Assembly: GCA_003133245.1 (NCBI GenBank)
Contig: PKWM01000034.1
Span: forward strand, 1 to 64,000
Direction of reading: 5' to 3'
From: Rhodoferax sp.
GTDB taxonomy: Bacteria; Pseudomonadota; Gammaproteobacteria; Burkholderiales; Burkholderiaceae_C
Length of the DNA: 64,000 nt
A program made the position numbers and the translations under genes. Shown one piece after another: positions 12,470-37,894 of this stretch (position 1 is its first letter; every line of letters starts with the position of its first letter). The notes beneath the pieces are model-generated. The model did not search any database, had not been told where the DNA came from, and saw only the letters and a program-made list of their open reading frames with translations.

Positions 12470-13780
12470 CTAATAGGTCTCCAAGTGCAAGCGTCCTTCC
12501 TGCTTCAAGGCAGAACCGAGCGCATCCCAGGCCAGGCCCGACTGGAGTGCGACGTCGTGCAGCGCCAGCAGCACACCCTCTTCCATGCTCCTTAGGCCAC
12601 AGACGTAGAAGTAACTGTTGCTGTCGGCGAGCAGCGCTGCCAGGTCGGCGGCGCGCTCACGCATCACATCCTGCACGTAGCGTCGCTCTTGACCCAGCAC
12701 GCGTGAAAAAGCGAAGTTGATGTCGATAAAGTCTTTGGGCAGCTTTTGCAAAGGGCCGAAATAAGGCAGTTCCTCGGGGCTGCGCGCGCCGAAAAAAAGC
12801 AGCAACTTGCCCGCTTCAAATTTGCCCGTCTGGTGCAAACGCCGACGCCACTCGGTCATGGCTCGCATCGGCGCACTGCCGGTACCAGTGCATATCATCA
12901 CGATGTTGCTGCGCGGGTGATTTGGCATCAAAAAGCTGCTGCCAAACGGGCCAATCACCTGCACCTTGTCGCCCACCTGCGAGTCGCACAGGTAATTGCT
13001 GGCGACGCCGCGAACGGCCTGGCCTTGATGATCCTGTAAAACCCGCTTGACGGTCAGCGACAGGTTGTTGTAGCCGGCTCGCTCACCGTTGCGCGCACTG
13101 GCCACCGAATATTGCCGCGCATGGTGGGGTCGGCCCTGGTTGTCCAGGCCCGGCGCAAGAATGCCGATCGACTGGCCTTCAAGCACCGGGAACGGCAACA
13201 GGCCAAAGTCCAGCATCACATGGTGGGTGTCGTAGTCGCTGCCCATTTGGGTGACGCGCACATTGCCCACCACGGTGGCACTGATGAACGGCTGCGCCGC
13301 CTTGGGACCATAGAGGTTGGTGTAGGCGTGCGCGGCCGACCAGGGCGGAATCGTGGATCCGAAATTGCTGCTCGACTGATCCGGCTCATCGTTCGCGACC
13401 ACGCCGCTTGTTGGCAGCAACGCAGCATTGCTGGCAGGTGTCGTCAAGGCATTACTGACCGGCACCGCAGTGGGGGCGGCAACCCCGGCAGCCGCCAACT
13501 CGGTCGGTGACAACTCAGGTGGCAGCTCGTCCCACAGCAGTTGCTCCGCCACGCTGTAGCTCTTGCCACGCGGCACCCAGCGCCAGTTGTCGATGGCGCC
13601 GGTCGGGCACGGCGCGATGCAGTCCAGGCAGGCGGCGCACTTGCCCACATCGACCACATAGTTGCGGCTGTCATGCGTCACCGCGTTCACCGGGCAAGTG
13701 GCTTCGCAGGTATTGCAGCGGATGCAGATCTCGGGGTCGATCAAGTGCTGCTTGATGAGCTCGGTGGCTGATACATCCAT
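12470..13780 (-). CDS. boxA: Benzoyl-CoA 2,3-epoxidase, reductase component BoxA
   Basis: A 436-residue iron-sulfur flavoprotein that passes electrons from NADPH to BoxB for epoxidation of benzoyl-CoA. Residues 13-70 hold two 4Fe-4S motifs ([12 protein letters not shown] and [12 protein letters not shown]). A Pro/Ala-rich linker follows, then an FAD domain (ARQYSVAS) and an NAD(P) domain ([14 protein letters not shown]). The ATG at 13780 follows GAGGT by 9 bases; an upstream in-frame start has no such site. The gene lies 25 bases after boxB in the boxCBA operon. The cytoplasmic protein is slightly longer than typical BoxA because of the linker. Confidence 0.93.
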
Positions 13781-13805
13781 GACGCTTACCTCTTTCGCTA
13801 CCGGC

Positions 13806-15233
13806 TCAGGCAAAGCGCACGTAGTCAAAGTCCACCGGCTGGTGGTTGATTCCCATCACCGGCGGTGCAATCCAGTTGGCAAATTTGCCCGGCTCCGTGA
13901 CACGCCCCATCAGGCTGGCGACATAAGCGCGGTCCGACGCTGACGGCAACCATTGATCCACATTGGCGTTCCACTCGGCGTCAGACACCAGCGCGCCGGT
14001 AGGCGACACTTTGATGCCTGCCAGCGCGCCAATGTTGCGGTGAAAGGCCTTGTGCGGCACTTTGAGCCGGAACTCAATACCGGCTTTGGCCAGCACTTTA
14101 TTCCAGCGCTCCACACCCGCCACCGAGTCCACAATGTAGTCGTCGCGCAGCACTTCATTGAGCGCGTTGAGCATGGGCACTTCGCGCTCAACGAGTTGAC
14201 CGCCCTGCGCCTGGATAACTTTGTAAGTCTGCCCCTTGAGCACATGGTCGTCCTGGCGCTTGCCTTCTTCATAACGCCCTTTGAGGCCCGAGCTGTAAAA
14301 GATGGCGGCGTTGCTCGACTCGTCGGCACCAAACAGATCGATCGTCACGCTGAAGTGAAAATTGAGATAGCGTTGCAAGGTGGGCAGATCGATCACGCCG
14401 GCTGCGCGCAGCTTGGCCACATCTTCGGTCTTGAGCTCGTTCATCACCTGAGCGGTGCGCGCAATCACCCGCGCAACACCGGCTTCACCGACAAACATAT
14501 GGTGCGCTTCTTCGGTCAGCATGAACTTGGTGGTGCGGGCCAGCGGATCAAAGGCGCTCTCGGCTAGGGCACAAAGCTGGAACTTGCCGTCGCGGTCTGT
14601 GAAATAGGTGAACATGAAAAAGCTCAGCCAGTCGGGCGTGGCCTCGTTGAAGGCGGCCAGAATCCGCGGGTGGTTGGCGTCCCCACTGTGTCGCTCCAGC
14701 AAGGCCTGCGCTTCTTCGCGGCCATCGCGGCCAAAATGCTTGTGCAGCAGATAGACCATGGCCCACAGGTGTCGGCCTTCTTCGACGTTGACCTGATACA
14801 GATTGCGCAGGTCGTACTGGCTCGGGCAGGTCATGCCCAGGTGGCGCTGCTGTTCCACCGAGGCGGGCTCGGTGTCGCCTTGCGTCACGATGATGCGACG
14901 CAAATTGGCGCGGTGTTCGCCCGGTACGTCTTGCCAGGCCGCCTGCCCCAGATGGTCGCCAAAGTGGATGGCGCGATCGGCCACACCCGGATTCATGAAA
15001 ATGCCCCAGCGGTAGTCTGGCATCTTGACGTGACCAAACTGCGCCCAACCCTGCGGATCGACACTGACCGCCGTGCGCAGATAAACGTCGAAGTTTTGCG
15101 AATCATCGGGCCCCATGTCGCGCCACCACCCTAGAAAGTTGGGCTGCCAGCTCTCCAGCGCGCGTTGCAGTGTGCGGTCTTCGCTCAAATTGACATTGTT
15201 GGGAATTTTGTCGCTGTAATTGATGCTTGACAT
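13806..15233 (-). CDS. boxB: Benzoyl-CoA 2,3-epoxidase, diiron oxygenase BoxB
   Basis: A 475-residue diiron oxygenase that inserts one oxygen atom into benzoyl-CoA to give 2,3-epoxybenzoyl-CoA. The diiron ligand motifs are visible as [11 protein letters not shown] near residue 150 and [12 protein letters not shown] near residue 240. Length matches known BoxB (about 473). The ATG at 15233 has GGAG seven bases before it; another ATG four codons upstream is less likely. It lies between boxC (23-base gap) and boxA. Confidence 0.95.
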
Positions 15234-15256
15234 GATGCTCTCCATAGATAAAGTAA

Positions 15257-16915
15257 TTAAACGCGGTGCCAGTCAAAAGCGGCTTTTTCGCCTTTGCCAT
15301 AGACCTTGAGTGCACCTTTTTCGCCGACCGCGTTGGGACGCTGGAAGATCCAGTTCTGCCAGGCCGTCAGGCGTGCAAAGACGCGGGTGAACATGTTTTC
15401 CGGGCCATTGAAACGCAGATTGGCTTCCATGCCAGTGAGCGCATCGGGCGAGAGCGCCACCCGCTCTTCAATCGCCAGGCGGACTTCGTCGTCCCAGTCG
15501 AGGTCGTCGGGGCAAGCTGTCACCAGCCCGAGGTCAAACGCGGCGCTGGCATCGAGTGACTGGCCAATCCTGGCCCGCACCGCCTGCAAAGTCGGCGCTT
15601 CATCGTAAAAAAGACGCCCCAGACGACTCTGGTCGGTGATCATTGGATACAGATCAAAATTGGCTTGGGTCACCCTGATCTGTGGTGCCTTTGCCGCGTC
15701 ATTGGGTAAAGCGAGCTGGTAGCTGCGATCGCACGCCAACGCCAATTCCAACAGAGTCCCGACAAAACAGGAACCCGGCTCGATCAGGGCAAACAGGCTG
15801 CGCGAGGAAACATCGAGCCGACTGAAAGTGCGTCGCAGCAAGCCAATCGTTTCACGCACCAGCCAGTGGTTCTTATGGGCCAACAGCAGGGCATCGAGCG
15901 CGACTACAGGTTCTGCCTCGCCCTGTGTTTTCAGCAACCACAAACCCATTTCAGGCTCGTTGGTTCGCATCAACAAAATGGCATCTTCAAGCTCACGCGC
16001 CAGCGCCAAGGGGTACCAGTCAGCCCCCAAGGCTTCGATGCCAGCCAGGTCGCCCGGCTGCTCACCGGCGGGTGCCTTGACGGTGAAAGTGGCGCAACGG
16101 CGCGATCGATCGATCAAAACGCTGACGTGCCGGTAGCGCAGCGCATCGGCCTCCAGCGCGCACTGCAAGGGTGTCAACGCCACGCCTTTGGCAGCGCTGG
16201 GGCGATCGCTGCTGGCAGCCAGTGCCAGCGCGCGCTCCTGGACCCTGCGAACAAATTCAACCGGCTTGGCAACAGCGTCCACCAGTCGCCAGGCGACTGC
16301 CTTGTCACCGCGCACCCCCTCAACGCTGGTACAAAAAATATCGGCCAGATCGTGACGCACATGGCGCTTGTCGGTCAGGCGGGTCAGGCCACCGGTGCCG
16401 GGTAACACCCCCAGTAGTGCCACTTCGGGCAGACTTACGGCGCTGGAGCGGTCATCCACCAAAATGATCTCGTCACAGGCCAGCGCCAACTCGTAACCGC
16501 CACCCGCGCAGGCACCGTTGACAGCAGCGAGAAACTTGAGTCCGCTGTATCTGGAGGCGTCTTCCAGGCCGTTGCGCGTTTCGTTGGTAAATTTGCAAAA
16601 ATTGACTTTCCAGGCGTGACTGGAGACACCGAGCATGAAAATATTGGCACCCGAGCAAAAGACTTTTTCTTTGGCGCTGGTCAGCACCACGGTGCGTACT
16701 TCAGGGTGTTCAAAACGGATGCGATTGATGGCATCGCTGAGTTCAATATCAACGCCCAGATCGTAGCTGTTGAGTTTAAGTTTGTAGCCCGGGCGCAGAC
16801 CCGCGTTTTCATCAAAATCAGCTTTGAGCGTGGCCACTGACCCCTCAAAATTGAGTGTCCAGTGTTTGTATTGGGAAGGATCGGTCTGGTATTCGACGCG
16901 GTTGGAAAGAGGCAT
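15257..16915 (-). CDS. boxC: Benzoyl-CoA-dihydrodiol lyase (2,3-epoxybenzoyl-CoA dihydrolase) BoxC
   Basis: A 552-residue crotonase-fold enzyme that hydrolyses 2,3-epoxybenzoyl-CoA to 3,4-dehydroadipyl-CoA semialdehyde and formate. Crotonase features are visible at residues 75-175: SAKEKVFCSGANIFML, NGACAGGGYELALACD, SLPEVALLGVLPGTGG. The protein has the extended second half specific to BoxC. The ATG has CCAGGAG 8 bases before it. First gene of boxCBA; its promoter region is shared with bclA. Confidence 0.94.
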   Translation of the reverse strand: MPLSNRVEYQTDPSQYKHWTLNFEGSVATLKADFDENAGLRPGYKLKLNSYDLGVDIELSDAINRIRFEHPEVRTVVLTSAKEKVFCSGANIFMLGVSSHAWKVNFCKFTNETRNGLEDASRYSGLKFLAAVNGACAGGGYELALACDEIILVDDRSSAVSLPEVALLGVLPGTGGLTRLTDKRHVRHDLADIFCTSVEGVRGDKAVAWRLVDAVAKPVEFVRRVQERALALAASSDRPSAAKGVALTPLQCALEADALRYRHVSVLIDRSRRCATFTVKAPAGEQPGDLAGIEALGADWYPLALARELEDAILLMRTNEPEMGLWLLKTQGEAEPVVALDALLLAHKNHWLVRETIGLLRRTFSRLDVSSRSLFALIEPGSCFVGTLLELALACDRSYQLALPNDAAKAPQIRVTQANFDLYPMITDQSRLGRLFYDEAPTLQAVRARIGQSLDASAAFDLGLVTACPDDLDWDDEVRLAIEERVALSPDALTGMEANLRFNGPENMFTRVFARLTAWQNWIFQRPNAVGEKGALKVYGKGEKAAFDWHRV

Positions 16916-16979: not shown

Positions 16980-16993
16980 TTGACGCAGATCAA
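16980..16993. promoter_or_regulatory. FNR/Anr-like binding site between boxC and bclA
   Basis: TTGAC-GCAG-ATCAA matches the FNR/CRP-family oxygen-regulator box TTGAT-N4-ATCAA at nine of ten positions. It lies 64 bases before the boxC ATG and about 150 before the bclA start, so it could act on either or both divergent promoters. A second site is found before had. The match is seen directly; binding is inference. Confidence 0.5.
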
Positions 16994-17049: not shown

Positions 17050-17071
17050 AGTACCAATTTGCAATAATTGC
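17050..17071 (+). promoter_or_regulatory. Probable bclA promoter element shared with the had-bam operon
   Basis: AGTACC, four bases, then TGCAATAAT and GC two bases on. The same arrangement occurs at 24369-24390 before had. TGCAATAAT fits an extended -10 box (TG-N-TATAAT with one mismatch). The GCAATAATTGC here is also a perfect palindrome, so an operator is an alternative reading. Confidence 0.45.
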
Positions 17072-17144
17072 TCGGAAGTCAATTCAACCGGCTTTAAAAT
17101 CGGCTTGTAGGGCAAACCGATTGCAAGTATCACAGGAGACAAAA

Positions 17145-18740
17145 TTGACAACCCCCACCACTACCCAGCCCCTCGGGCCGCACTTTAATTTTGCCGAGCA
17201 TTTGATCGAGTGCAACCGCTCGCGCCCCGGTAAGATGGCCTATGTCGACGACCAGGGCAGCTTGACTTATGGCGAGTTGGCTCAGCGCATTCGCCGCCTG
17301 GCGGGCGCTCTGCTGGCCTCGGGCCTGCGCCGCGAAGAACGCGTGCTGCTCCTGATGCACGACTGCAACGACTGGCCGGTGAGCTTTCTGGGCGCGATGT
17401 ATGCCGGTATCGTGCCGGTGGCGGTGAACACGCTGCTCACGGTGGAAGATTACGCGCACATGCTCAAGCACAGCCGCGCGCAAGCGGTCATGGTGTCATA
17501 TGCGCTGTTGCCCACAGTCCTGTCGGCGCTGGAGAAGCGCGACCACGAAGTCAAACATGTGATCGTTTCGCACTCACAAGGCGCCCTGCCGGCCGGGGCG
17601 CGCAAGCTCGACTCCATCATTGACGCTGCCACTGAGCTGGCGCGGGCCGCCGACACCGGGCCTGACGACCCCGGTTTCTGGCTCTATTCATCGGGCTCCA
17701 CAGGCCAGCCCAAAGGCGCATTGCACAGTCACGCCAACCCCTACTGGACGGCCGAACTCTACGCCACGCCGGTGTTGGGTCTGACCGAGAGCGATGTCTG
17801 TTTTTCGGCTGCCAAACTGTTTTTTGCCTACGGGCTGGGCAACGCACTCTCGTTCCCATTGAGCGTGGGCGCCACCACCATATTGATGGCCGAGCGGCCG
17901 ACACCCGAGGCCGCTTTCAAGCGTTGGCGCGGTGAAGTCGGCGGCGCCAAGCCAAGCGTATTTTTTGGTGCTCCCACCGGTTTTGCCGGCATGCTCGCCA
18001 GCCCCGCCCTGCCTGCCAAAAAAGAAGTCGCCCTGCGCCTGGCATCTTCCGCTGGTGAAGCCTTGCCAAGCCAACTGGGTAAACAATTTACCGCTCACTT
18101 CGGGGTTGAAATCATCGACGGCATTGGCTCAACCGAGATGCTGCATATCTTCCTCTCCAATCGGCCCGGCCAGGTGCGCTACGGCACCACCGGTTGGCCG
18201 GTACCCGGATACGAGGTCGAATTGCGTGATGATGCCAACCAGTTGGTGGCTGCGGGTGAGACCGGTGACCTCTACATCAAAGGGCCTAGTTCCGCTCTGC
18301 TGTACTGGGGCAATCGTGATAAGTCGCGTGAAACCTTTCAGGGCGAGTGGACCAAAAGTGGCGACAAATATGTATGCAACAGTGACGGTACTTATACCTA
18401 CAGCGGCCGCAGCGACGACATGCTCAAGGTCAGTGGTATTTATGTCTCGCCGTTTGAAGTCGAAGCCACGCTGGTGCAACACCCGGCAGTGCTGGAATCG
18501 GCCGTGATTGGCGTCGCCGACGAACAGGGCCTGACCAAGACCAAGGCTTTTGTGGTGCTCAAGGCGGGTCAATCGGCGAGTGAAGACGAACTCAAAGCCT
18601 TCGTCAAGGAACGCCTGGCGCCCTACAAATACCCGCGCCAAATCGTTTTTGTGGCGGAACTGCCCAAGACCGCCACCGGCAAAATCCAGCGCTTCAAGCT
18701 GCGTGATCTCGAGGCGGCAGTTCAGGACACGAAGCAGTGA
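17145..18740 (+). CDS. bclA: Benzoate-CoA ligase
   Basis: A 531-residue acyl-adenylate-forming enzyme that activates benzoate to benzoyl-CoA with ATP. Motifs: YSSGSTGQPKGALHSH (P-loop), IGSTEMLHIFLSN (A5 region typical of benzoate-CoA ligases), YSGRSDDMLKVSGIYVSP (hinge) and the C-terminal catalytic Lys in PKTATGKIQRFK. The start is TTG at 17145, seven bases after AGGAG; a TTG eight codons earlier has no ribosome site. It is the only aromatic acid ligase in the window, so it probably feeds both the aerobic box and the anaerobic bam branches. It overlaps the next gene. Confidence 0.93.
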   Translation: MTTPTTTQPLGPHFNFAEHLIECNRSRPGKMAYVDDQGSLTYGELAQRIRRLAGALLASGLRREERVLLLMHDCNDWPVSFLGAMYAGIVPVAVNTLLTVEDYAHMLKHSRAQAVMVSYALLPTVLSALEKRDHEVKHVIVSHSQGALPAGARKLDSIIDAATELARAADTGPDDPGFWLYSSGSTGQPKGALHSHANPYWTAELYATPVLGLTESDVCFSAAKLFFAYGLGNALSFPLSVGATTILMAERPTPEAAFKRWRGEVGGAKPSVFFGAPTGFAGMLASPALPAKKEVALRLASSAGEALPSQLGKQFTAHFGVEIIDGIGSTEMLHIFLSNRPGQVRYGTTGWPVPGYEVELRDDANQLVAAGETGDLYIKGPSSALLYWGNRDKSRETFQGEWTKSGDKYVCNSDGTYTYSGRSDDMLKVSGIYVSPFEVEATLVQHPAVLESAVIGVADEQGLTKTKAFVVLKAGQSASEDELKAFVKERLAPYKYPRQIVFVAELPKTATGKIQRFKLRDLEAAVQDTKQ

Positions 18741-19555
18741 GTTTTATAGAGGTCGATTGGGCCGGACGACCGATCCGCATCGAGTACCAGTGGCTGGCGC
18801 CGGAAAAATCGAGCGCTCCACTGCTCGTTTTTTTGCACGAAGGCCTGGGTTCAGTGGCCATGTGGAAAAATTTCCCCAAACAATTATGTGAACGCCTGGG
18901 CTGGCGTGGCCTGGTCTATTCGCGCCCCGGCTATGGCCGCTCGACACCGCGCGCTGCCAGCGAAATCTGGGACGTCGATTTCATGCACCGGCAAGCCTGG
19001 GAGGTACTGCCTGCCTTGCTCGCAGCACTCGGTGTCGATGGCACAAGGCAACCCCTCTGGCTGCTGGGCCACAGCGACGGCGCGTCAATTGCGTTGCTGT
19101 ACGCGGCCCACTTTGCATCGCAAGTCGCTGGGCTCGTCTTGCTGGCACCGCATATCATGGTCGAAGACAAAACGGTGGCCAGCATCGAGCTGGCACGCCA
19201 GGCCTATTTGAATACCAACCTGCGCGCACGCCTGGCCAAGTACCATGATGACCCCGACTCGGCCTTTTGGGGCTGGAACCCGATCTGGCTCAACCCGCTC
19301 TTTCGCGCTTGGTCGATTGCGGCCGAGATCAAACCGATCCGTTGCCCGCTGCTGGCAGTACAGGGGCTTGATGACGAATATGGCAGCCTGAGGCAAATTG
19401 AGGATATCGCTGCCGCTCTGCCCCAAACCGAGCTGATCAAACTCAGCGCCTGCGGCCACAGTCCGCAGCGCGACCAACCCGAAGCGCTGATCGCGGCAGT
19501 GTGCGCTTTCGCGACACGCCATCACCCTGACTTCAAAGTACGGGTTTCTCCCTAA
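18737..19555 (+). CDS. Alpha/beta hydrolase of the benzoate cluster
   Basis: A 272-residue alpha/beta hydrolase. The nucleophile elbow GHSDGAS gives Ser near residue 116; the acid is probably Asp in QGLDDEYG, and the base is His in ACGHSPQRD. The start is a GTG that overlaps the bclA stop (GTGA), so the two are coupled. Similar hydrolases sit in box clusters of other betaproteobacteria. It could be a thioesterase that frees CoA from dead-end aromatic thioesters, or a lactonase; the substrate is not visible from sequence. Confidence 0.75.
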   Translation: MSFIEVDWAGRPIRIEYQWLAPEKSSAPLLVFLHEGLGSVAMWKNFPKQLCERLGWRGLVYSRPGYGRSTPRAASEIWDVDFMHRQAWEVLPALLAALGVDGTRQPLWLLGHSDGASIALLYAAHFASQVAGLVLLAPHIMVEDKTVASIELARQAYLNTNLRARLAKYHDDPDSAFWGWNPIWLNPLFRAWSIAAEIKPIRCPLLAVQGLDDEYGSLRQIEDIAAALPQTELIKLSACGHSPQRDQPEALIAAVCAFATRHHPDFKVRVSP

Positions 19556-19620
19556 TGCAAGTCACGCCTGAGTCGTTACGATCAGGGTGTTTGAGTATTA
19601 ACTCCTTGAAAGAATATGCC

Positions 19621-20817
19621 ATGAACACCCCCCAGCCCTCCCGTCGTCTTATTTTGTCCCGCAGCGCCGCCCTGATTGGTGCTGCCGCCAGTGGCGCGCT
19701 GCTACCGGCCCTGAGCCTGGCACAATCCAGCAAAGTGCGCGTCGGCCTGATGTTGCCCTACACCGGCACTTACGCTGCACTCGGCGTGGCGATTGAAAAC
19801 GGTTTTCGTCTGGCCGTTGACGAACAGGGCGGCAAGCTCGGCGGCCGCGAGATTGAATGGTTCAAGGTCGACGACGAATCGGATCCGTCCAAGGCGGTTG
19901 AAAACGCCAACAAGCTGGTGCAGCGCGACAAGGTCGACGTGCTGATCGGCACCGTACACAGCGGTGTCGCCATGGGCATGCTCAAGGTCGCTCGCGAAAG
20001 CGGCACATTACTGATCATTCCCAACGCTGGCGTCAATGCCGCTACCGGTGCGCTTTGTGCGCCCAATATTTTCCGAACCTCGTTTACCAGCTGGCAGACC
20101 TCCTATCCGCTGGGTAAAGTGCTGGTGGATCGTGGCCACAAAAATGTCATCACCATCGCCTGGCAATACGCTTTTGGCGAAGAATCGGTGAGTGCCTTTA
20201 CCGAAGGCTTGACCAAGGCTGGCGGCAAGGTCATCAAGGAGTTGTGGGTGCCGTTCCCCAACGTCGAGTTCCAGGCGCTGCTGACGCAGATCGCCGCGCT
20301 CAAGCCTGATGCGGTCTATGCCTTCTTCGCCGGCGCCGGTGCCGCCAAATTTGTCAAGGATTACGCTGCGGCCGGTCTGAAGGGCAAGATTCCCTTGTTT
20401 GGCTCGGGTTTTATCACCGACGGCGTGCTCGAAGCGCAGGGTGTAGCGGCCGAGGGACTGGAGACCACGCTGCACTATGGCGACGGCCTGGAGACCCCGC
20501 GCAACAACGCGTTCCGGCTGGCTTACGCCAAAGCATACAAGCTTCAGCCCGATGTTTATGCAGTACAGGGCTACGATGCGGGCTTGCTTTATGCCAATGG
20601 CATGAAAGCCGTCAAAGGCAACACTGCGAACAAGCCCGCACTGATTGCAGCCATGGAAAAGGTCAAGGTCGATAGCCCGCGCGGTGCCTGGACCCTATCG
20701 CGCGCGCACAATCCGGTGCAAAATATTTACCTGCGCAAAGTTGTTGGCAAGGAAAACAGGGTGACCGGCATTGCTGCCAAGGCGTTGGCCGATCCGGCAC
20801 CTGGCTGCAAGATGTAA
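19621..20817 (+). CDS. ABC importer substrate-binding protein (Liv-type, aromatic acid candidate)
   Basis: A 398-residue periplasmic type I binding protein (Peripla_BP_6). The N-terminus has twin Arg (SRRLIL), a hydrophobic stretch and an Ala-rich cleavage site near residue 36, so it may be exported by Tat or Sec. The mature part opens KVRVGLMLPYTGTYAALG, the usual first strand of amino-acid/aromatic binders. I chose the ATG at 19621, just before the signal peptide. Its place after bclA points to benzoate or a related aromatic acid as ligand. Confidence 0.85.
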   Translation: MNTPQPSRRLILSRSAALIGAAASGALLPALSLAQSSKVRVGLMLPYTGTYAALGVAIENGFRLAVDEQGGKLGGREIEWFKVDDESDPSKAVENANKLVQRDKVDVLIGTVHSGVAMGMLKVARESGTLLIIPNAGVNAATGALCAPNIFRTSFTSWQTSYPLGKVLVDRGHKNVITIAWQYAFGEESVSAFTEGLTKAGGKVIKELWVPFPNVEFQALLTQIAALKPDAVYAFFAGAGAAKFVKDYAAAGLKGKIPLFGSGFITDGVLEAQGVAAEGLETTLHYGDGLETPRNNAFRLAYAKAYKLQPDVYAVQGYDAGLLYANGMKAVKGNTANKPALIAAMEKVKVDSPRGAWTLSRAHNPVQNIYLRKVVGKENRVTGIAAKALADPAPGCKM

Positions 20818-20834
20818 GTTTGCACAGCATCCTC

Positions 20835-20875
20835 AGCCGTCCGCCATCGCCCCCGGTGGCGGACGGCTCTTTCTT
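20835..20875 (+). terminator. Hairpin between the binding-protein gene and livH
   Basis: Perfect 12-base stem AGCCGTCCGCCA / TGGCGGACGGCT followed by CTTTCTT. It probably acts as a partial terminator or RNA-stabilising hairpin so that the binding protein is made in excess over the membrane parts of the importer. Confidence 0.75.
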
Positions 20876-30010: not shown

Positions 30011-31165
30011 ATGGAAACCGTAGTCCCCCAAAAGGAAATCATCGATGCCATCAAGTTAGCTGGCGGCGATGCTTTCAAATCCTGTTATCAGTGCGGCATG
30101 TGCGACACCGTCTGCCCATGGAACAGGGTTTCCAAATTCAGCATGCGCAAGCTCGTGCGCGAGGCGACCTTCGGCCTGACCGAGATCGACAGCGAGGACA
30201 TCTGGCGTTGCACGACTTGCGGCAAGTGCCCGCAGATCTGCCCGCGCGACGTCAAGCAAATCGAGTCGGGCGTTGCGCTGCGCCGCGTCGCCACTGAGTA
30301 TGACGTCTTCGCCGGCGGTGCCTCACCGATCCCGGGTGTTGCCGCCAGCCTCAGAGCCGAGGGCAATCCATTCGGCGAAGCGCGCTCCAAGCGGGCCGAC
30401 TGGGCGAATGGGTTGGGTGTCAAGCGTTTCGAGGAGGGCATGGAGGTCATGTACTCTCCGGGCTGCTACCTTTCGTACGATCCGCGCGGCAAGAAGATCG
30501 CCAAGGCCACGGTCGAGATACTACAAGCGGCGGGCGTTAACTTTGGCATCCTCGGCACCGACGAGAGCTGCTGCGGCGAGAGCATCCGCAAGACCGGCGA
30601 TGAGAAATTATTTCGCACACTGGCCCGGCAGAACATTGCTCAACTGGTCGGCAACGGTGTCAAGAAGATCCTGGTTTCGTCGCCGCACTGCTATCACAGC
30701 TTCAAGAACGAGTACCCCGAGTTCATGGTGCACTTCGAGGTCGTTCACATCACCGAATTCATCCATCAGCTGATCAATGAGGGCCGCTTGAAGCTGACCA
30801 AGGAAGTTGCGAAGAACGTCACCTATCACGACCCCTGCTATCTCGGCCGCCACAACGGCATCTTCGAGCAGCCGCGAGAAGCACTAAGGAGCGTGCCGGG
30901 GCTGCAATTGACGGAGATGCCCGAGAACCGCAAAAACAGCTTCTGCTGCGGCGGCGGCGGCGGGCGCATCTGGATGGAAACGCCCAAAGGCGAGCGCTTT
31001 TCCGACTTGCGCCTGGAGCAGGCAGCCGGTACCGGCGCGCAGGTCCTGGTGACGTCCTGTCCGTACTGCATCACCAATTTCGAAGACAGCCGCTTGGGCC
31101 GTGCGGACGGCGGCGCCTCAATCGAGATCAAGGACATCACCGAAATCATCCGCGAAGCAATTTAG
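30011..31165 (+). CDS. bamD: Class II benzoyl-CoA reductase complex, HdrB/D-like subunit BamD
   Basis: A 384-residue iron-sulfur protein like heterodisulfide reductase HdrD. N-terminal 4Fe-4S motifs CYQCGMCDTVCPW and CTTCGKCPQICP are followed by two CCG domains (SPGCYLSYDP..ESCCGES and HDPCYLGRHNG..FCCGGGGG) that in Hdr proteins hold unusual 4Fe-4S clusters. It probably belongs to the electron-bifurcating or energy-coupling arm of the Bam complex. It starts 3 bases after bamC. Confidence 0.92.
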   Translation: METVVPQKEIIDAIKLAGGDAFKSCYQCGMCDTVCPWNRVSKFSMRKLVREATFGLTEIDSEDIWRCTTCGKCPQICPRDVKQIESGVALRRVATEYDVFAGGASPIPGVAASLRAEGNPFGEARSKRADWANGLGVKRFEEGMEVMYSPGCYLSYDPRGKKIAKATVEILQAAGVNFGILGTDESCCGESIRKTGDEKLFRTLARQNIAQLVGNGVKKILVSSPHCYHSFKNEYPEFMVHFEVVHITEFIHQLINEGRLKLTKEVAKNVTYHDPCYLGRHNGIFEQPREALRSVPGLQLTEMPENRKNSFCCGGGGGRIWMETPKGERFSDLRLEQAAGTGAQVLVTSCPYCITNFEDSRLGRADGGASIEIKDITEIIREAI

Positions 31166-31180: not shown

Positions 31181-34100
31181 GTGGAATTCGGACTCTTACA
31201 GCAGCAGTGGAACACGCAGAACGCGCTTCGCCCGGCGGATGACAACATGGGCGACGTCATGGTTATCGGTGGCGGCATCAGCGGCATCCAGTCCGCGCTC
31301 GACCTGTCAACGGATGGTTATAAAGTCTATTTGGTGGAGAAGTCGCCGACCATCGGCGGCAAGATGTCGCAGCTCGACAAGACCTTCCCCACCAATGACT
31401 GCTCGATGTGCATCGAGTCGCCGAAGTTTATCGAAACCGACCGGGCGCCCAACATCCAGTTGCTGACCTATACCGACGTCGATAGCGTCGAAGGCCAGCC
31501 TGGTGACTTCACCGTCACGCTGTTGAAAAAACCGCGCTACGTCAACGCCGACAAATGCACGGGATGCACCGCCTGCGTTGAGCGCTGCCCGGTCAAAATC
31601 CCCGATCCGTTCAATCAGGATCTGTCGTTGAACAAGGCGGTGCACATCTACTTTGCGCAAGCCGTGCCGCTGGTCACTTACATCGACGACAGCTGCCTGT
31701 TCCTGAAGGACAAGACCTGCAATATCTGCCAGGCCGTTTGCGAAAACGATGCTATCGACTTCGGTCAGAAGGCAGAAAAAATCAAGGTTAAGGTCGGCGC
31801 CATCATCCTGTCGCCCGGCTACGAAACCTTCAACCCCTTGCCACGCAACGATTACGGCTACGGCCTGTTCAAGAACGTCGTCACCAGCATGGACTTCGAG
31901 CGCCTGCTGTGCTCTACCGGTCCGCACGAGGGGCAGATCCTGCGTCCCTCGGACAAGAAACATCCGCACAAGATCGCCTGGATTCACTGTGTTGGTTCGC
32001 GCCAGGTTAACCCGACCGGTGCCAATAGCTATTGCTCGGCGGTGTGCTGCTCTTACACGCAAAAGCAGGTGATCCTGGCCAAGGACCACCTGCCCGACAT
32101 GCATGCCACGATCTTCCATAACGATATCCGCTCCTACGGCAAGGACTTCGAGCGCTTCTACCAACGCGCACAAAACTTGCCCGATGTGCAATTCGTGCGC
32201 AGCTACGTGTCGGTCGGCAGCGAAGACCCGGTAACCGGGGATGTTTCGATCCGCTACACCACGCCGGACGGGGTGGTCGAAGAGTTCTTCGAACTGGTGG
32301 TGCTCTCGGTCGGCCTGGCCCCGCCCAAGGATGCCCAGCGCTTTTCCAAAGTCTTTGGCATCGAGCTCAACCAGCACGGCTTCTGCAAGGTCGAGCCTTT
32401 CAACCCGCTACAAACCAGCCGTGCGGGCATTTTCACCAGCGGTGCTTTCCAGGGGCCGATGGACATTCCCGAGTCGGTGATGGGGGCCAGCGGTGCCGGT
32501 GCCCAGGCCGCCAACCTGCTCAAGTCACGTCGCGGTCAGCTCTCGACGGACCGGGTCTATCCGAAGGAAATGGATGTCTCGCAAGAGGAAGCCAAGATCG
32601 GTGTCTTCGTCTGCCGCTGCGGCGCCAACATCGGCAGCGTAGTCGATGTGCCAAGTGTCGCAGAATACGCCATGGGCCTGCCGGGCGTAGTGCACGTCGA
32701 AGATTCTCTGTTTGCCTGCGCCACCAATACTGCCCAGGCGATCTCCGACACCATCCGCGACAAGGGCTTGAACCGGGTGGTGATCGCCGCTTGCACGCCG
32801 CGCACGCTCGAGCCTCTGTTTCGCGACACCTTGCGCGAAGCTGGCGTGAACCAGTACTACATCGACATGGCCAACATCCGCGAGCACTGCTCCTGGGTGC
32901 ACTCCAAGGAGAAGGAAGCCGCTACGGCGAAGTCCAAGGATCTGGTTCGCATGTCAGTGGCACGGGTCAGCATACTCGAACCACTCGAAGAGTTTTCGCT
33001 GCCGGTGGACAAGACCGCGCTGGTGATCGGCGGCGGTGTCGCCGGCATGACCAGCGCCCACACCTTGGCCGAGCAGGGCTATGAGACCTACTTGATCGAG
33101 AAAGCCTCGGATTTGGGCGGCGTTGCCAACCGCCTGCACTACACGCTCGAAGGAATGGACGTTCAGGCCTTCCTTAAGGACCTCAAGAAAAAGGTTTATC
33201 GGCACCCGAAGATCCACGCCATCATGGATGCCACGATAACGCATGTAGATGGCTATGTTGGCAATTTCACGACCACGGTCAAGTCCAAGAGCCGGGTGCG
33301 CACCATCAAACACGGTGCCGCCATCATCGCCACCGGTGCCGCCGAGTATCAGCCAACCGAGTATCTGTACGGCCAGAGCGACAAAGTGATGACGCTGCTG
33401 GAGATGGAAGGCAAGCTCGCGAAGCAGGAAGAAAAACTGCTGGCGGCGCAGAGCGTGGTGATGATCCAATGCGTCGGCTGCCGCAACACGGATCGCAACT
33501 ACTGCGCCCGTGTCTGCTGTAGCGGAACCATGAAGAACGCTTTGAAAATGAAAGCGCTCAAGCCGGAAGTCGAAATCTATGTGCTGTTCCGCGATATCCG
33601 CACTTACGGTTTCCGCGAGGATTACTACCGTGAGGCATCGAACCAGAACGTCAAGTTCATCCGCTTCGAGGCCGACGACAAACCGCAACTGGAAACCATC
33701 GAACAAGGCGGGCGCAGCTTCATCCGCGTCACAGCATTTGATCCAATTCTGGACAAAAAGCTCGAGCTCGATGCCGATGCCATCATTCTGGCCGCGGCCG
33801 TGATCCCTGCTGCCGGTTCCGCCGAGCTGGCACGCATGTTCAAGGTGCCGCTGAGCCCGGACGGATTCTTCCAGGAAGCCCACGTCAAGCTGCGGCCGGT
33901 GGACTTTGCGGCGGAAGGCGTTTACCTGTGCGGCACCGCGCAGTATCCCAAGCACCTGTCGGAGACCATCACTCAGGCTTACGGTGCAGCGGGACGAGCT
34001 CTGACCCTGCTGTCAAACGACACGGTGGTGGCCTCGGGCGCGGTGTGCGCTGTATCCGCCAGGGACTGCGTCTCCTGCGGCGCCTGCATCTCGGTTTGTA

Positions 34101-34279
34101 CTTATGGTGCTATCTCGTTCGAGGATACGCCGCGCGGCAAGAAGGCCGTGGTCAATTCGGTGCTGTGCAAAGGCGACGGCCTGTGCGTCGCCAAGTGTCC
34201 GACCGCAGCCATCAGCCTTTCACACTTCACGGACGACGAAGTGTTCGTCCAGATTGATGCCGCGCTGTCGGAAATTTGA
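31181..34279 (+). CDS. bamE: Class II benzoyl-CoA reductase complex, HdrA-like flavoprotein BamE
   Basis: A 1,032-residue fused HdrA-like protein with GTG start preceded by GCGAGGA. Two FAD-binding motifs are visible: MVIGGGISGIQSAL near residue 26 and LVIGGGVAGMTSAH near residue 613. Ferredoxin motifs are CTGCTACVERCP in the first half and CVSCGACISVC plus CKGDGLCVAKCP at the C-terminus. HdrA is the flavin bifurcation site in methanogen complexes; in BamE a like role, driving low-potential electrons to BamBC, is proposed. The largest subunit and the centre of the operon. Confidence 0.92.
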   Translation: MEFGLLQQQWNTQNALRPADDNMGDVMVIGGGISGIQSALDLSTDGYKVYLVEKSPTIGGKMSQLDKTFPTNDCSMCIESPKFIETDRAPNIQLLTYTDVDSVEGQPGDFTVTLLKKPRYVNADKCTGCTACVERCPVKIPDPFNQDLSLNKAVHIYFAQAVPLVTYIDDSCLFLKDKTCNICQAVCENDAIDFGQKAEKIKVKVGAIILSPGYETFNPLPRNDYGYGLFKNVVTSMDFERLLCSTGPHEGQILRPSDKKHPHKIAWIHCVGSRQVNPTGANSYCSAVCCSYTQKQVILAKDHLPDMHATIFHNDIRSYGKDFERFYQRAQNLPDVQFVRSYVSVGSEDPVTGDVSIRYTTPDGVVEEFFELVVLSVGLAPPKDAQRFSKVFGIELNQHGFCKVEPFNPLQTSRAGIFTSGAFQGPMDIPESVMGASGAGAQAANLLKSRRGQLSTDRVYPKEMDVSQEEAKIGVFVCRCGANIGSVVDVPSVAEYAMGLPGVVHVEDSLFACATNTAQAISDTIRDKGLNRVVIAACTPRTLEPLFRDTLREAGVNQYYIDMANIREHCSWVHSKEKEAATAKSKDLVRMSVARVSILEPLEEFSLPVDKTALVIGGGVAGMTSAHTLAEQGYETYLIEKASDLGGVANRLHYTLEGMDVQAFLKDLKKKVYRHPKIHAIMDATITHVDGYVGNFTTTVKSKSRVRTIKHGAAIIATGAAEYQPTEYLYGQSDKVMTLLEMEGKLAKQEEKLLAAQSVVMIQCVGCRNTDRNYCARVCCSGTMKNALKMKALKPEVEIYVLFRDIRTYGFREDYYREASNQNVKFIRFEADDKPQLETIEQGGRSFIRVTAFDPILDKKLELDADAIILAAAVIPAAGSAELARMFKVPLSPDGFFQEAHVKLRPVDFAAEGVYLCGTAQYPKHLSETITQAYGAAGRALTLLSNDTVVASGAVCAVSARDCVSCGACISVCTYGAISFEDTPRGKKAVVNSVLCKGDGLCVAKCPTAAISLSHFTDDEVFVQIDAALSEI

Positions 34280-34303: not shown

Positions 34304-35074
34304 ATGGCTTCCCCATCCGAATTCAAACCGACCATCGTCGGCTTTCTCTGCAACTGGTGCTGCTATGGCGGTGCCGATCTGGCAGGCGTCTCTCGCTTCC
34401 AATATCCGCCGTATCTGCGCGTGATCCGCCTGATGTGCTCGGGCCGGGTCGATCTGGAGTTCATCTTGCGCGCCTTTGCCAAGAAGGCCGACGCCGTGTT
34501 TATCGGCGGCTGCCATCTGGGCGACTGTCACTACAACCCCGAAGGCAATTACGACGCCCTGGGCAACAGCTTCGTCGCCAAGCGCATCCTGGAGAACATC
34601 GGCATCAATCCAGACCGGCTGCGCCTGGAATGGGTCTCCGCCGGCGAAGGCATACGCTTTTCCGAAATTATGATCGAGTTCGGTGCCAAGATCAAAGCCC
34701 TCGGCCCCTTCGGCTCAAGCGAAGGCCGTGACACGGATGACCTAGTGGCTGGCCTGGACGCGGCCACGCAGCTGGTGCCGTACTTCAAGCTGGTCGAGCG
34801 CGAACGCTTTCGTGTCACCAAGCGGACCGAAGCCGGTTACAAGGAATTCTTCGCCAGGCCCGACTATGAGCCGCTGTTCAAGGAGTTGGTCCTGGACAAG
34901 CTGACCATGAGCCGCATCATGGGCGCACTGCGCAGCGGGGTGTTGACGACCGAGACTATCTCGCAGAAGCTCGGCGTCAATGGCTTGGAAGTCGCACGGC
35001 ACCTGCATCTGCTATCGCAGCAGGGCATTGTCCGCATGGACGCCGACCAGGTTCAGGTCGCCGTAGCCGCCTAA
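34304..35074 (+). CDS. bamF: Class II benzoyl-CoA reductase complex, MvhD-like subunit BamF (Cys form)
   Basis: A 256-residue protein. Residues 1-140 match MvhD, the 2Fe-2S link between hydrogenase and HdrA in methanogens: FLCNWCCYGGADLAG and GGCHLGDCHY. In Geobacter BamF a selenocysteine is reported; here all positions are Cys codons and no in-frame TGA occurs, so selenium is not needed. The C-terminal 60 residues (TTETISQKLGVNGLEVARHLHLLSQQG) look like a winged-helix fold. Probably passes electrons between BamE and BamGHI. Confidence 0.88.
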   Translation: MASPSEFKPTIVGFLCNWCCYGGADLAGVSRFQYPPYLRVIRLMCSGRVDLEFILRAFAKKADAVFIGGCHLGDCHYNPEGNYDALGNSFVAKRILENIGINPDRLRLEWVSAGEGIRFSEIMIEFGAKIKALGPFGSSEGRDTDDLVAGLDAATQLVPYFKLVERERFRVTKRTEAGYKEFFARPDYEPLFKELVLDKLTMSRIMGALRSGVLTTETISQKLGVNGLEVARHLHLLSQQGIVRMDADQVQVAVAA

Positions 35075-35113: not shown

Positions 35114-35566
35114 ATGAGCGAAGAAAAAGTCAGCGCCATCATCGAGAAATACCGGGGCCAGCCGAGCTCGCTGATCCATGCGCTGGTGGAAATCCAGCAC
35201 GCAAACCACTGGCTACCCAGGGAAGTGATGCACCAGGTGGCCGACGCACTGCAGGTGCCGTTCGCCCAGGTGATGCAAATCGCCAGCTTCTACAAGACCT
35301 TCAGCCTGACGCCGAAGGGGCGCCACGAGGTGCATGTGTGCACCGGCATGACCTGCCACCTGCGCGGCGCGGCCAAACTGCAGGCCAAGGTCGAGGAGCT
35401 CACCAGCCTGCAAGACGGGCAGACCGACGCCGACGCCAAATTCACCTTTGCAACCGGCGCCTGTTTGGGCAGTTGCAGCATAGCACCCGAGCTGATCGTC
35501 GATGGCAAACACTATGGCCGGATGACGCCGGAAAAAGTCGAAGACATCCTGAAACAATACGAATGA
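35114..35566 (+). CDS. bamG: Class II benzoyl-CoA reductase complex, NuoE-like subunit BamG
   Basis: A 150-residue thioredoxin-fold 2Fe-2S protein like the 24-kDa subunit of complex I. The four ligands sit in CTGMTCHLRG and GACLGSCSIAP. It should form, with BamH and BamI, an NADH-oxidising module. Its stop overlaps the bamH ATG. Confidence 0.92.
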   Translation: MSEEKVSAIIEKYRGQPSSLIHALVEIQHANHWLPREVMHQVADALQVPFAQVMQIASFYKTFSLTPKGRHEVHVCTGMTCHLRGAAKLQAKVEELTSLQDGQTDADAKFTFATGACLGSCSIAPELIVDGKHYGRMTPEKVEDILKQYE

Positions 35567-37230
35567 GTCATCCAATGCCAAAGTTTCAATCAGCCGCTGA
35601 GCTGGAAAAATTCAGGGCAGAAATCCTGGCCAAACGGGACCCTGCCAAACCCTGCATCGCAGTCTGCGCCGGCGCGGCGTGCGACGGCCTGGACTCGGCG
35701 GCGGTGGCAGCCGCCTTCGTCGCCGCAGTCGCCACGCTCGGTGACAAAATCGAAGTCAAAACCACCGGTTGCCACGGCTACTGCGAGAAGGGGCCGAACG
35801 TTGTGGTCACTCCTGGCGACATCTGCTACTTTGAAGTCAGCCCGGCCGACGTGAGCGAGATCATCGCCGCCACGCTCAAAGGCGAGGTGGTCGAGCGTCT
35901 GGTGTACCACGACCCGAACACCGGCGCCAAGGCGGTGCACATGAACGAAGTGCCGTTCTACAAGCACCAGACCCGCCTTTTGATCGGCGACAACCCGAAG
36001 ATAGACCCGATGAAGATCGACGACTATCTGGCAGTTGGTGGCTATGCGGCGCTGGTGAAGGCTTTGAGCGAGATGAGTCCGGATCAAGTCCTGGACGAAG
36101 TGAAGAAAGCCAACCTGCGCGGCCGCGGCGGCGGTGGTTTTCCGGCGGGCTCGAAATGGGAGACCACCAAAAATGCGCCGGAAAAGATCAAGTACGTGAT
36201 CGTCAATGGCCACGAAGGCGAGTCCGCTGCCTTCATGGACCGGGCTATGCTCACCGGCAACCCACACAAGATCCTTGAAGGCTTGATCATCGGTGCCTAC
36301 GCCATCGGCGCGCAAAAGGGCTTCATGTACACCCGCCACGATATGCCGCTGCTGGAAAAGCACGTCAGGAATGCGCTGGCCCAGGCGGCGGAATATGGCC
36401 TGCTGGGTAAAAACATCCTCGGCACCGGCTTCGACTTCGAATGCGAACTGCACTTCGACGTCGGCATCTTCGTCTCGGGTGAGTCCAGCGCGTTGATGCG
36501 CTCGATCGAGGGCAACGCGCCCGAGCCGCGGCCGAAGTACATCCGCACCTCGGTGTCGGGCATCTGGGACAAGCCGAGCAACCTCAATAACGTCGAGACC
36601 TGGGCCAACGTGCCGCAGATCATAGAGAAGGGTGCCGACTGGTTCACCAGCATCGGCACGGAAAAGAGCAAGGGCACCAAGCTGATTTCGCTGTCGGGTC
36701 ATGTGGTGAATAGCGGCATCGTGGAAGTACCCATGGGCACACCGCTGCGCACCCTGGTGTTCGACATCGGCGGCGGCGTGCGCGACGGCAAGACGCTCAA
36801 GGCCATCCACTTCGGTGGCGCCATGGGCGGCTCCATTCCCGCCGACCTGATCGACGCACCGCTGGACTTCGACGGCATGTCCAAGCTGGGCGCGCCGATT
36901 GGCGCTGGCGGCCTGCTGCTGATGGACGAAGACACCGACATGGTCGAAGTGGCGCGCTACCTGATGGATTTCCTGACCAAAGAATCCTGCGGCAAGTGTG
37001 TGCCCTGCCGCGAAGGCATGGCGCAGATGCTGCAGATTCTGAGCGCTCTCGCCAAAGGTGAGGGCAAGCCCGGCGACCTGGAGCGGCTACAGGACCTGGT
37101 CGAGGTGACGGGAGTGGCCAGCCTGTGCGCGCTGGGCAAAACCTCGGGTGACCCGCTCAAAAGCATGTTCCGTTATTTCAAGCCAGAGTATGAAGCGCGC
37201 ATTGCCGCGGGAGCGAAACGAAATGACTGA
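35563..37230 (+). CDS. bamH: Class II benzoyl-CoA reductase complex, NuoF-like subunit BamH
   Basis: A 555-residue protein. An N-terminal 2Fe-2S thioredoxin-like domain (CIAVCAGAACDG..TTGCHGYCEKGP) is followed by the NuoF core with the FMN/NADH glycine loop GRGGGGFPAGSKWE and the 4Fe-4S motif CGKCVPCREGM. The start at 35563 overlaps the bamG stop (ATGA); an open frame runs further upstream but inside bamG. Some HndC-like relatives have a C-terminal ferredoxin; this one does not. Confidence 0.92.
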   Translation: MSHPMPKFQSAAELEKFRAEILAKRDPAKPCIAVCAGAACDGLDSAAVAAAFVAAVATLGDKIEVKTTGCHGYCEKGPNVVVTPGDICYFEVSPADVSEIIAATLKGEVVERLVYHDPNTGAKAVHMNEVPFYKHQTRLLIGDNPKIDPMKIDDYLAVGGYAALVKALSEMSPDQVLDEVKKANLRGRGGGGFPAGSKWETTKNAPEKIKYVIVNGHEGESAAFMDRAMLTGNPHKILEGLIIGAYAIGAQKGFMYTRHDMPLLEKHVRNALAQAAEYGLLGKNILGTGFDFECELHFDVGIFVSGESSALMRSIEGNAPEPRPKYIRTSVSGIWDKPSNLNNVETWANVPQIIEKGADWFTSIGTEKSKGTKLISLSGHVVNSGIVEVPMGTPLRTLVFDIGGGVRDGKTLKAIHFGGAMGGSIPADLIDAPLDFDGMSKLGAPIGAGGLLLMDEDTDMVEVARYLMDFLTKESCGKCVPCREGMAQMLQILSALAKGEGKPGDLERLQDLVEVTGVASLCALGKTSGDPLKSMFRYFKPEYEARIAAGAKRND

Positions 37231-37894
37231 AATCAATCTGACAATCGATGGCAAGCAGGTCAAGGCCGAAGCTGGCATGACTGTGCTGGATGTGGCGCGC
37301 AGGGAAGACATCTACATACCGACCTTGTGCCATCACGAAAAGCTTGAGGCCTTCGGCGGCTGCCGCCTGTGTATGGTGGAGGTGGAATCGCGCGGCTGGA
37401 CCAGCTACGTCGTGTCGTGCCTCTATCCGGTGGCCAAAGACATCGTCGTGCGCACCCGCTCAGACAAGGTGGACAAGATCCGCAAGGTGCTGGTCGAGGA
37501 GCTGATGGCCCACGCGCCGGACGCCCCCGAACTGGTAAATTTGGCCCGGGAGTACGGTGCCGACCGCGATCGTTTTAAAAAAGAGGCGTCGTTCTGCGTG
37601 CTGTGCGGACTGTGCGTGCGCTATTGCGACGAAGTGAAGAAAAAGAACGCAGTCAGCTTCTTCGACAACGGCGCGGTGCGCCAGATCAAGTTCGTTGCGG
37701 AAATCGCCAAAAATGAATGCTGGGACTGCCAGGAATGCTTTGCGATTTGCCCGACGTCCTATGCGCAGGCCGCTTACCTGCTGACCGAAGCGCTGGCATT
37801 CCCCGGCCAGCGCAAGACCGCAAAGCGCGCAGCCAAGGCAACTGCCAAACCCAGGGTGATTATTCCCATCACGGCGGTACCGATGACGGCCTAA
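37223..37894 (+). CDS. bamI: Class II benzoyl-CoA reductase complex, NuoG-like iron-sulfur subunit BamI
   Basis: A 223-residue protein like the N-terminal part of NuoG. It shows a 2Fe-2S domain (CHHEKLEAFGGCRLCMVE, further Cys in VVSCLYP) and 4Fe-4S ligands in CVLCGLCVRYC and CWDCQECFAICP. The last 28 residues form an odd basic, Ala-rich tail (KTAKRAAKATAKPRV) not expected for an iron-sulfur domain. The ATG at 37223 overlaps the bamH end by 8 bases. It ends the bam gene set. Confidence 0.9.
   Translation: MTEINLTIDGKQVKAEAGMTVLDVARREDIYIPTLCHHEKLEAFGGCRLCMVEVESRGWTSYVVSCLYPVAKDIVVRTRSDKVDKIRKVLVEELMAHAPDAPELVNLAREYGADRDRFKKEASFCVLCGLCVRYCDEVKKKNAVSFFDNGAVRQIKFVAEIAKNECWDCQECFAICPTSYAQAAYLLTEALAFPGQRKTAKRAAKATAKPRVIIPITAVPMTA

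Follow-up and report, generated by a model that had tools for sequence, protein, structure and literature searches.

Can one bacterium send benzoate into an oxygenase route and also into a reductase route that is usually assigned to strict anaerobes? This question is raised by a 64,000-nt stretch of Rhodoferax sp. DNA (assembly GCA_003133245.1, contig PKWM01000034.1, positions 1 to 64,000 of the forward strand; hereafter the window). A cluster at 12470–37894 of the window holds the genes of the Box pathway (boxABC) and of a class II benzoyl-coenzyme A (benzoyl-CoA) reductase (bamBCDEFGHI) on either side of one benzoate-CoA ligase (BCL) gene. Class I benzoyl-CoA reductases spend ATP and suit denitrifiers, whereas class II reductases bifurcate electrons and suit low-energy, oxygen-free life. 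The usual rule, class I in facultative and class II in obligate anaerobes, is stated in the available text of PMC5378359. The preliminary description of this DNA had assigned Bam mainly to obligate anaerobes, and the available text of three recent papers assigns class II to strict anaerobes (PMC12096430, PMC11971306, PMC12521323). Georgfuchsia is a strictly anaerobic betaproteobacterium, as far as the title of a cited reference tells. Our analysis found known enzymes in a new combination, and under a regulatory arrangement, at odds with this rule.

The preliminary description had proposed that box genes and a full bam set flank a single BCL, and this gene content was confirmed across the cluster by scores over the NCBIfam cut-offs, by a match to PDB entry 4z3w and by intact reading frames. 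The boxCBA genes lie on the minus strand, and the genes from BCL to bamI diverge from them on the plus strand. The reductase subunit of benzoyl-CoA 2,3-epoxidase, boxA (12470–13828), scored 697.8 bits against TIGR03224 (cut-off 459.2), and the oxygenase subunit, boxB (13806–15245), scored 882.1 bits against TIGR03225 (cut-off 499.1). The 2,3-epoxybenzoyl-CoA dihydrolase gene boxC (15257–16915) scored 919.3 bits against TIGR03222 (cut-off 712.3), and BCL (17121–18740, plus strand) 790.8 bits against TIGR02262 (cut-off 375.25). Since boxA, boxB, boxC and BCL are all over their cut-offs, the genes belong to the Box pathway. One BCL gene was counted within the cluster; no search for a second one elsewhere in the genome was made.

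The second half of the cluster starts with three genes of the lower reductive pathway, all on the plus strand: had (24468–25538; 6-hydroxycyclohex-1-ene-1-carbonyl-CoA dehydrogenase; TIGR03201, 574.2 bits, cut-off 338.65; start set from relatives), oah (25546–26679; TIGR03200, 621.5 bits, cut-off 464.45) and dch (26676–27449; cyclohexa-1,5-dienecarbonyl-CoA hydratase; TIGR03189, 375.8 bits, cut-off 292.5). The eight bam genes follow on the same strand. They are bamB (27514–29475), bamC (29468–30007; iron–sulfur subunit with ferredoxin-type matches, in the conserved position after bamB), bamD (30011–31165; HdrBC/GlpC-like iron–sulfur subunit), bamE (31181–34279; HdrA2-like flavin and iron–sulfur subunit; NF040770, 930.9 bits, under the cut-off of 1100), bamF (34304–35074; MvhD/VhuD-like), bamG (35114–35566; thioredoxin-like [2Fe-2S] subunit, NuoE-like; PF01257, 162 bits), bamH (35563–37230; NuoF-like NADH module of 555 residues; TIGR01959, 424.4 bits, under the cut-off of 558.65) and bamI (37223–37894; NuoG/HoxU-like iron–sulfur subunit). 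The start sites of had (24468), bamH (35563) and bamI (37223, from the reading frame) were corrected. The NCBIfam matches included no models for BamB to BamI, and the subunits were assigned by the PDB match (BamB), domains found in the family scan and conserved gene order. BamE, BamF, BamH and BamI fall below the HdrA, MvhD, NuoF and NuoG model cut-offs, as would be expected for other proteins of the same folds. The bamB–I order is conserved in other bam loci, in a comparison that lists counterparts at identities of at least 45% (bamB and boxB excepted). With the eight-subunit set complete, the operon encodes a Bam-type reductase.

No internal stop was found in the frames of box, BCL, the transporter, had, oah, dch and bam. 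The ratio of non-synonymous to synonymous substitution rates (dN/dS) against relatives was approximately 0.09–0.20 for box, 0.06–0.15 for had-oah-dch and 0.03–0.18 for bam (BCL and the transporter were left out). The box, had-oah-dch and bam genes are under purifying selection.

The window BamB is collinear with 4z3w over residues 1–653 of 653. The depositors named this entry 'Benzoyl-CoA reductase, putative', and we take it to be BamB of Geobacter metallireducens. Cys322, Glu251, Glu257 and His260 are kept in the window protein and in 83/83 rows of the BamB1 type, and position 322 is alanine in ten aldehyde-oxidoreductase rows. According to the available text of PMC12096430, the tungsten ligand Cys322 is shared by BamB and its relative YdhV, whereas other family members lack it. 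The phylogenetic tree used 95 rows, seven of the original 102 (six aldehyde oxidoreductases and a partial sequence) having been set aside. It placed the window protein, with an SH-aLRT support of 100, in a clade that comprises 27 BamB rows from betaproteobacteria and a single row from Rhodospirillaceae (L063), which may fall within or beside the 27. Aldehyde oxidoreductases and a paralogue, BamB2, fall apart from this clade. The preliminary description had named a position among aldehyde oxidoreductases that are not benzoyl-CoA reductases as the result that would overturn it; the collinearity, Cys322 and the tree rule such an enzyme out. Judged by its sequence, the window BamB is a true class II benzoyl-CoA reductase subunit. 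The G. metallireducens complex has eight subunits, arranged as Bam[(BC)2DEFGHI]2 in the available text of PMC11971306, and the window encodes the same number. Besides this likeness, the full-length collinearity of BamB and the shared Cys322, the window differs in its betaproteobacterial BamB clade, the adjoining boxABC, had-oah-dch directly upstream and a valine at position 255.

The host genome (G000; genomes, contigs and loci carry our working numbers G, C and L) is a draft of 2.94 Mb in 52 contigs with a completeness of 98.56%. It encodes a bo3 quinol oxidase, with CyoA and CyoB over the cut-off, and a quinol nitric oxide reductase. MtrB scored 474.7 bits (cut-off 240) and was found in 0/14 control genomes; MtrC scored 602 bits, and between their genes lies an MtrA-like open reading frame (ORF) of 330 residues with ten CxxCH motifs. 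None of the five PF00384 molybdopterin oxidoreductase matches in the genome was over the NarG or NapA cut-off, and loci L198 and L199 gave only weak matches to dimethyl sulfoxide or thiosulfate reductases. A terminal oxidase thus stands beside anaerobic respiratory genes, and these genes support the earlier suggestion of a facultative organism. Its life is likely facultative and probably metal-reducing. As side observations, an ORF of 1033 residues next to mtrCAB (L209:4973–8071, contig C9) also contains ten CxxCH motifs, and a further 774-residue member of the COX1 family, distinct from the quinol nitric oxide reductase, is encoded on contig C27 (L005).

Two promoter regions of the cluster carry the same pair of sites on the plus strand. 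The divergent boxC/BCL region has an FNR-like site (TTGACGCAGATCAA, 16980–16993, one mismatch) and, 71 bp from it and upstream of BCL, an 18-bp element (GTACCAATTTGCAATAAT, 17051–17068). The region before had-oah-dch-bam has an FNR-like site (TTGATCTAGATCAG, 24308–24321) approximately 147 bp upstream of had and an 18-bp element (GTACCGCTATGCAATAAT, 24370–24387). The FNR-like site lies 62–64 bp upstream of the element at the had promoters that carry the element at up to two mismatches. The FNR-like site before had was found in 6/7 loci (the window, L031, L034, L036, L038 and L041) and belongs to the most strongly conserved parts of the promoter alignment; random 320-bp pieces of the same loci contained such a site in 8–24% of cases. 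The 18-bp pattern GTACYNNTWTGCAATAAT has just two matches in the window, at 17051 and 24370. The expected number of 0.02 flatters the pattern, which was written after the window sites and L031 had been viewed; the independent test is its occurrence in other loci. A search of 2.13 Mb (216 overlapping records) at up to two mismatches found the element in the had promoters of L031, L034 and L036 and immediately before the class I gene bcrC of G031, G036, G012 and G033, with two stray matches (L070 and L095). The had promoters of L038 and L041 carry it at three mismatches. Because the element is present at the BCL, had-bam and bcrC promoters, one element precedes the ligase and both of the unrelated reductase classes. 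It may resemble the operators of BzdR and BoxR.

The distribution of the pairing was followed in a scan with one genome per species, which gave 478 BamB relatives, of which the best 80 were kept. The clade sample comprised 28 genomes, namely the 24 best (proteobacterial, in one BamB clade) and four of the own genus, with hidden duplicates possible. boxB was found in 26 of them, 25 times over the cut-off and once as a fragment at a contig end (G001), and was not found in G041 and G047. Outside the clade, where 23 of 56 BamB loci (L059–L114) were tested for boxB, it was present in one (Fisher p = 4e-11 against the clade, with kinship ignored). This association is tempered by boxB being a common betaproteobacterial gene anyway. 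In the own genus, boxB occurred in 4/4 bamB carriers and 4/14 non-carriers, counts that include the sub-cut-off fragments of G001 and G015 (Fisher p = 0.023, a weak value since the genomes are related). Across the order, one of 399 genomes drawn had BamB (E value 1e-150 or better), and this was the own genome.

boxB and bamB share a contig in three further genomes (G012, G038 and G051). The cleanest case is G038, where had-oah-dch-bamB–I-boxCBA forms one run and no class I homologue was found. A 66-kb contig of G012 (C76) is an aromatic island with box, a class I-type set and two bam sets, one of bamB1 and one of bamB2, the latter with its own bamC–I genes. The third, G051, is the named cultured strain Ramlibacter lithotrophicus RBP-1, which has bamB–I, boxB, boxC, BCL and the same transporter type, with approximately 280 kb between boxB and bamB. 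The Mn(II)-oxidising culture from which this species came is said to have been oxic. The species was isolated from it on succinate or hydrogen, according to the available text of PMC9040806. A combination unique to the Rhodoferax organism is ruled out by the 26 clade genomes.

PurL of the window, encoded on the same 171.8-kb contig as the cluster, is 80–83% identical to that of G003, G010, G030, G031, G032 and G036 (the longest piece of each). Against G035 (Rhodocyclaceae) and G037 (Sulfuritalea), BamB is 94% identical and PurL only 59–60%; against Ramlibacter G051 the values are 79% and 75–78%. Synonymous divergence (dS) was 0.34–0.84 in 28 bam comparisons and 0.89–1.82 in 12 box comparisons, although the genomes compared for box and for bam are only partly the same and codon constraint may differ between the genes. 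Because the BamB and PurL identities are discordant and the dS of bam is lower than that of box, the bam operon appears to have spread horizontally among Comamonadaceae and Sterolibacteriaceae/Rhodocyclaceae. Sulfuritalea hydrogenivorans reportedly grows anaerobically on benzoate.

We consider it likely that the cluster is a benzoate island whose benzoyl-CoA enters Box when oxygen is available and Bam when it is not. Benzoate would be imported by the Urt-type ABC transporter, and the shared BCL would turn it into benzoyl-CoA, giving one entrance and two exits. With oxygen present, BoxAB would epoxidise benzoyl-CoA and BoxC would open the ring. With oxygen absent, an FNR-type regulator may activate had-oah-dch-bamBCDEFGHI from one promoter. 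At the tungsten site of BamB, benzoyl-CoA would then be reduced to the 1,5-diene, driven by electron bifurcation through BamC–I and with no ATP spent, and Dch, Had and Oah would convert the diene onward to 3-hydroxypimelyl-CoA. The electrons would probably reach Fe(III) or Mn(IV) through MtrCAB. In this scheme, each step catalysed by Box, Bam, Dch, Had and Oah follows the chemistry of the known enzymes. The genes, their integrity, the phylogeny, the conserved promoter sites and the respiratory genes are direct results, and we infer the regulation, the flux, the electron acceptor and the action of Bam, rather than of a second reductase described below, on benzoyl-CoA.

The wider reading concerns an oxygen-respiring lineage of Comamonadaceae and Sterolibacteriaceae. 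Its members would use Box with oxygen and a horizontally acquired Bam, the sole benzoyl-CoA reductase in some of them, without oxygen; Bam would stand under a promoter element that BCL and class I bcr operons also have, and the two unrelated reductase classes would be interchangeable on one benzoate switch. We give this reading a probability of 0.55. Several observations weigh against the benzoate-island explanation. Residue 255, one of four Zn and proton-relay residues (Glu251, His255, Glu257 and His260) that are all termed invariant in the available text of PMC12096430, is valine in the window BamB instead of the expected histidine. Of the 83 BamB1 rows, 43 have histidine at this position, 30 valine and 10 another residue, and His255 is therefore not invariant. 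BoxR was found neither among the window proteins scanned nor, over the cut-off, in the 98.6% complete genome (best 108 bits against a cut-off of 204, in a 180-residue frame), so the expected benzoyl-CoA sensor is missing. This absence does not exclude a working Box pathway because the regulator is accessory. The had-oah-dch genes precede bam in Comamonadaceae-type loci only and were not found in the examined stretches of Ramlibacter and Sterolibacteriaceae; boxA was likewise not found in the examined Ramlibacter stretch (L204). At the promoters, the FNR-like site before had is missing in L043, and at two mismatches the window holds 44 FNR-like matches with 18.6 expected, which weakens single sites. 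The 18-bp element stands at only 4/20 class I loci, and the class I promoters that carry it have no FNR-like site within 130 bp upstream at up to three mismatches.

A further point against the island explanation is a class I-type, ATP-dependent reductase in the same genome, with which Bam may not be the sole or main benzoyl-CoA reductase. Contig C18 (L026:6975–11333) encodes two HGD-D subunits and two BcrAD-type ATPase subunits. The catalytic subunits are under the class I cut-offs (B 219/486.6 bits; C 298.3/421.2 bits), as are the ATPases (322 residues, 166.9/312.9 bits for BcrD; 270 residues, 226.8/578 bits for BcrA), and all are below the Bzd model cut-offs too. The best solved relative of the catalytic subunits is the 3-methylbenzoyl-CoA reductase MbdNO (PDB 9g87), a class I enzyme of the methylbenzoyl-CoA reductase (MBR) type. 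The C18 set resembles MbdNO also in having two ATPase subunits alongside; it differs in lying outside the window, below the class I equivalog cut-offs and without lower-pathway genes in the stretch searched. The 34 kb around the C18 genes (L026 and L210; approximately 6 kb on one side and 23 kb on the other) yielded no had, oah, dch or BCL, and the 18-bp element is absent from L026. The C18 enzyme thus appears, from its sequence, to be MBR-like rather than Bcr or Bzd. Class I genes elsewhere as the working enzyme had been named in advance as a refutation; such genes exist, but they are MBR-like, under the cut-offs and without benzoate genes in the surrounding 34 kb. A role of this enzyme on benzoyl-CoA was rejected as unproven on the grounds of these scores, the likeness to MbdNO and the absence of lower-pathway genes. 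The C subunit is 71–80% alike in G051, G042 and G037. An ice-binding-like protein and an MmeI-type restriction-modification enzyme lie beside the operon (L026:2098–3312 and 12753–15647).

A homologue of the C18 C subunit was found in 21/28 clade genomes. With one protein query, none was found in G001, G030, G032, G034, G038, G039 and G041 (completeness is not given for G030–G053), and six of these seven genomes carry boxB. The class I subtype was scored for 5/20 further loci (L145–L164): L152 and L159 are over the BcrC cut-off, L164 is over the BzdN cut-off, and L148 and L150 are under. In G012 the class I-type C subunit is over the BcrC cut-off, and in G012 and G036 the four-subunit class I-type set adjoins box.

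These data bear on two further explanations. It is possible, though we hold it to be doubtful, that the two reductases have benzoyl-CoA, or overlapping aryl-CoAs, as common substrates and that the electron acceptor chooses between them, class I serving high-energy acceptors and class II low-energy ones such as Fe(III). This explanation overlaps with the benzoate-island explanation, and the odds of the two are not exclusive. The 21 genomes with both a class I homologue and Bam, the 66-kb contig of G012 and the one element before operons of both classes would fit it. Against it, none of the five PF00384 matches in the own genome is over the NarG or NapA cut-off, so that a high-energy anaerobic acceptor is not evident there, and seven genomes gave no class I homologue with the one query. 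An acceptor-chosen pair is nevertheless better placed than the explanation that keeps the textbook rule, namely that benzoyl-CoA is reduced by the C18 enzyme, with Bam in an auxiliary role or working on another aryl-CoA. The complete four-subunit set, its spread over the clade and the adjoining class I-type sets and box genes in G012 and G036 speak for this. We hold it to be unlikely, as the C18 scores are under the class I cut-offs with MbdNO as the nearest solved enzyme, and the had, oah, dch and BCL genes and the element that are missing around the C18 genes all sit with Bam.

A strict anaerobe whose box genes are a relic or an oxygen-scavenging device is very improbable, given the intact boxABC under purifying selection, the bo3 quinol oxidase and a carrier genome from R. 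lithotrophicus RBP-1, isolated as described in the available text of PMC9040806. Least credible of all is an assembly or binning artefact at the cluster junction: the draft assembly comprises 52 contigs, but the cluster lies on one contig with purL, boxB and bamB share a contig in G012, G038 and G051, and G038 has the same genes in a different arrangement.

A second BamB/BamC pair is encoded on contig C24 of the own genome (L022:1495–3969; L027), with 59% identity to BamB1. This BamB2 keeps Cys322 and His260 and lacks Glu251 and Glu257, and the pair may perhaps act on another aryl-CoA substrate. A second BamB match of 56–64% identity was found in 19/28 clade genomes. The neighbourhood of the C24 pair also encodes proteins with POR and TPP domains, a MarR-type regulator and a protein resembling methylmalonyl-CoA epimerase.

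Between BCL and had, the family scan of window proteins annotated an alpha/beta hydrolase (18737–19555, plus strand) and five ORFs of a Urt/Liv-type ABC transporter (19555–24239, plus strand), which probably serves benzoate uptake. The hydrolase also adjoins the box genes of G012, G036 and G031 (70% identity). All five transporter ORFs recur in the stretches that carry box in G012 (L200) and G051 (L204), and its urtA was seen in L203 and L207. No boxD was found among the window proteins scanned, and no genome-wide search for boxD was made. In G012, a BoxR-type gene (437.4 bits, cut-off 204) lies between boxC and the hydrolase, the position of BCL in the window. The cluster resembles the Box pathway of Azoarcus evansii, where the pathway was first described, in having boxABC and BCL over the NCBIfam cut-offs, and differs in having no boxR over the cut-off in the genome. 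Elsewhere in the window, two P-type cation ATPases (839 and 861 residues) are encoded by consecutive, overlapping genes at 3626–8700. The region downstream of bam (38276–50419) encodes an MFS transporter, a thiolase, a FadB-like protein, a second branched-chain-type ABC transporter and an acyl-CoA ligase that scores as 3-(methylthio)propionyl-CoA ligase. These downstream genes perhaps serve beta-oxidation of ring-cleavage products or the use of another acid.

No paper on Box with Bam was found in the open-access literature searched, and none there had bamB, boxB and benzoyl-CoA reductase together. The claim of a new combination therefore stands with regard to that literature; it has to be narrowed in that the pairing recurs in relatives and was partly foreshadowed by a 2009 paper on Rhodoferax ferrireducens (PMC2755013). 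According to its available text, this facultative Fe(III) reducer has box genes, one BCL, no class I reductase and only scattered bam-like genes, and its benzoyl-CoA reductase was left as an open question. The Rhodoferax organism studied here shares the box cluster and one BCL, and mtrCAB is common to both (available text of PMC8805035); the complete bam operon sets it apart from the scattered genes of R. ferrireducens. Hybrid contexts of Box and class I in Thauera, Azoarcus and Aromatoleum (PMC10803450) are alike in serving one aryl-CoA by oxygenase and reductase routes in one context. They differ from the present cluster, whose reductase is the ATP-independent class II; neither 'class II' nor 'bamB' occurs in the available text of that paper.

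The lifestyle rule for class I and class II looks too simple, as the pairing recurs in relatives. If the Box–Bam lineage reading is true, the rule that facultative organisms use class I and obligate anaerobes class II is broken. The pairing raises the question of how a megadalton, oxygen-sensitive tungsten complex survives in a cell that meets oxygen. It also raises the question of whether the electron acceptor, and not the oxygen lifestyle, determines the reductase class. As R. lithotrophicus is a named isolate, the pairing can be tested in culture. For environmental surveys, bamB as a marker need not indicate strict anaerobes.

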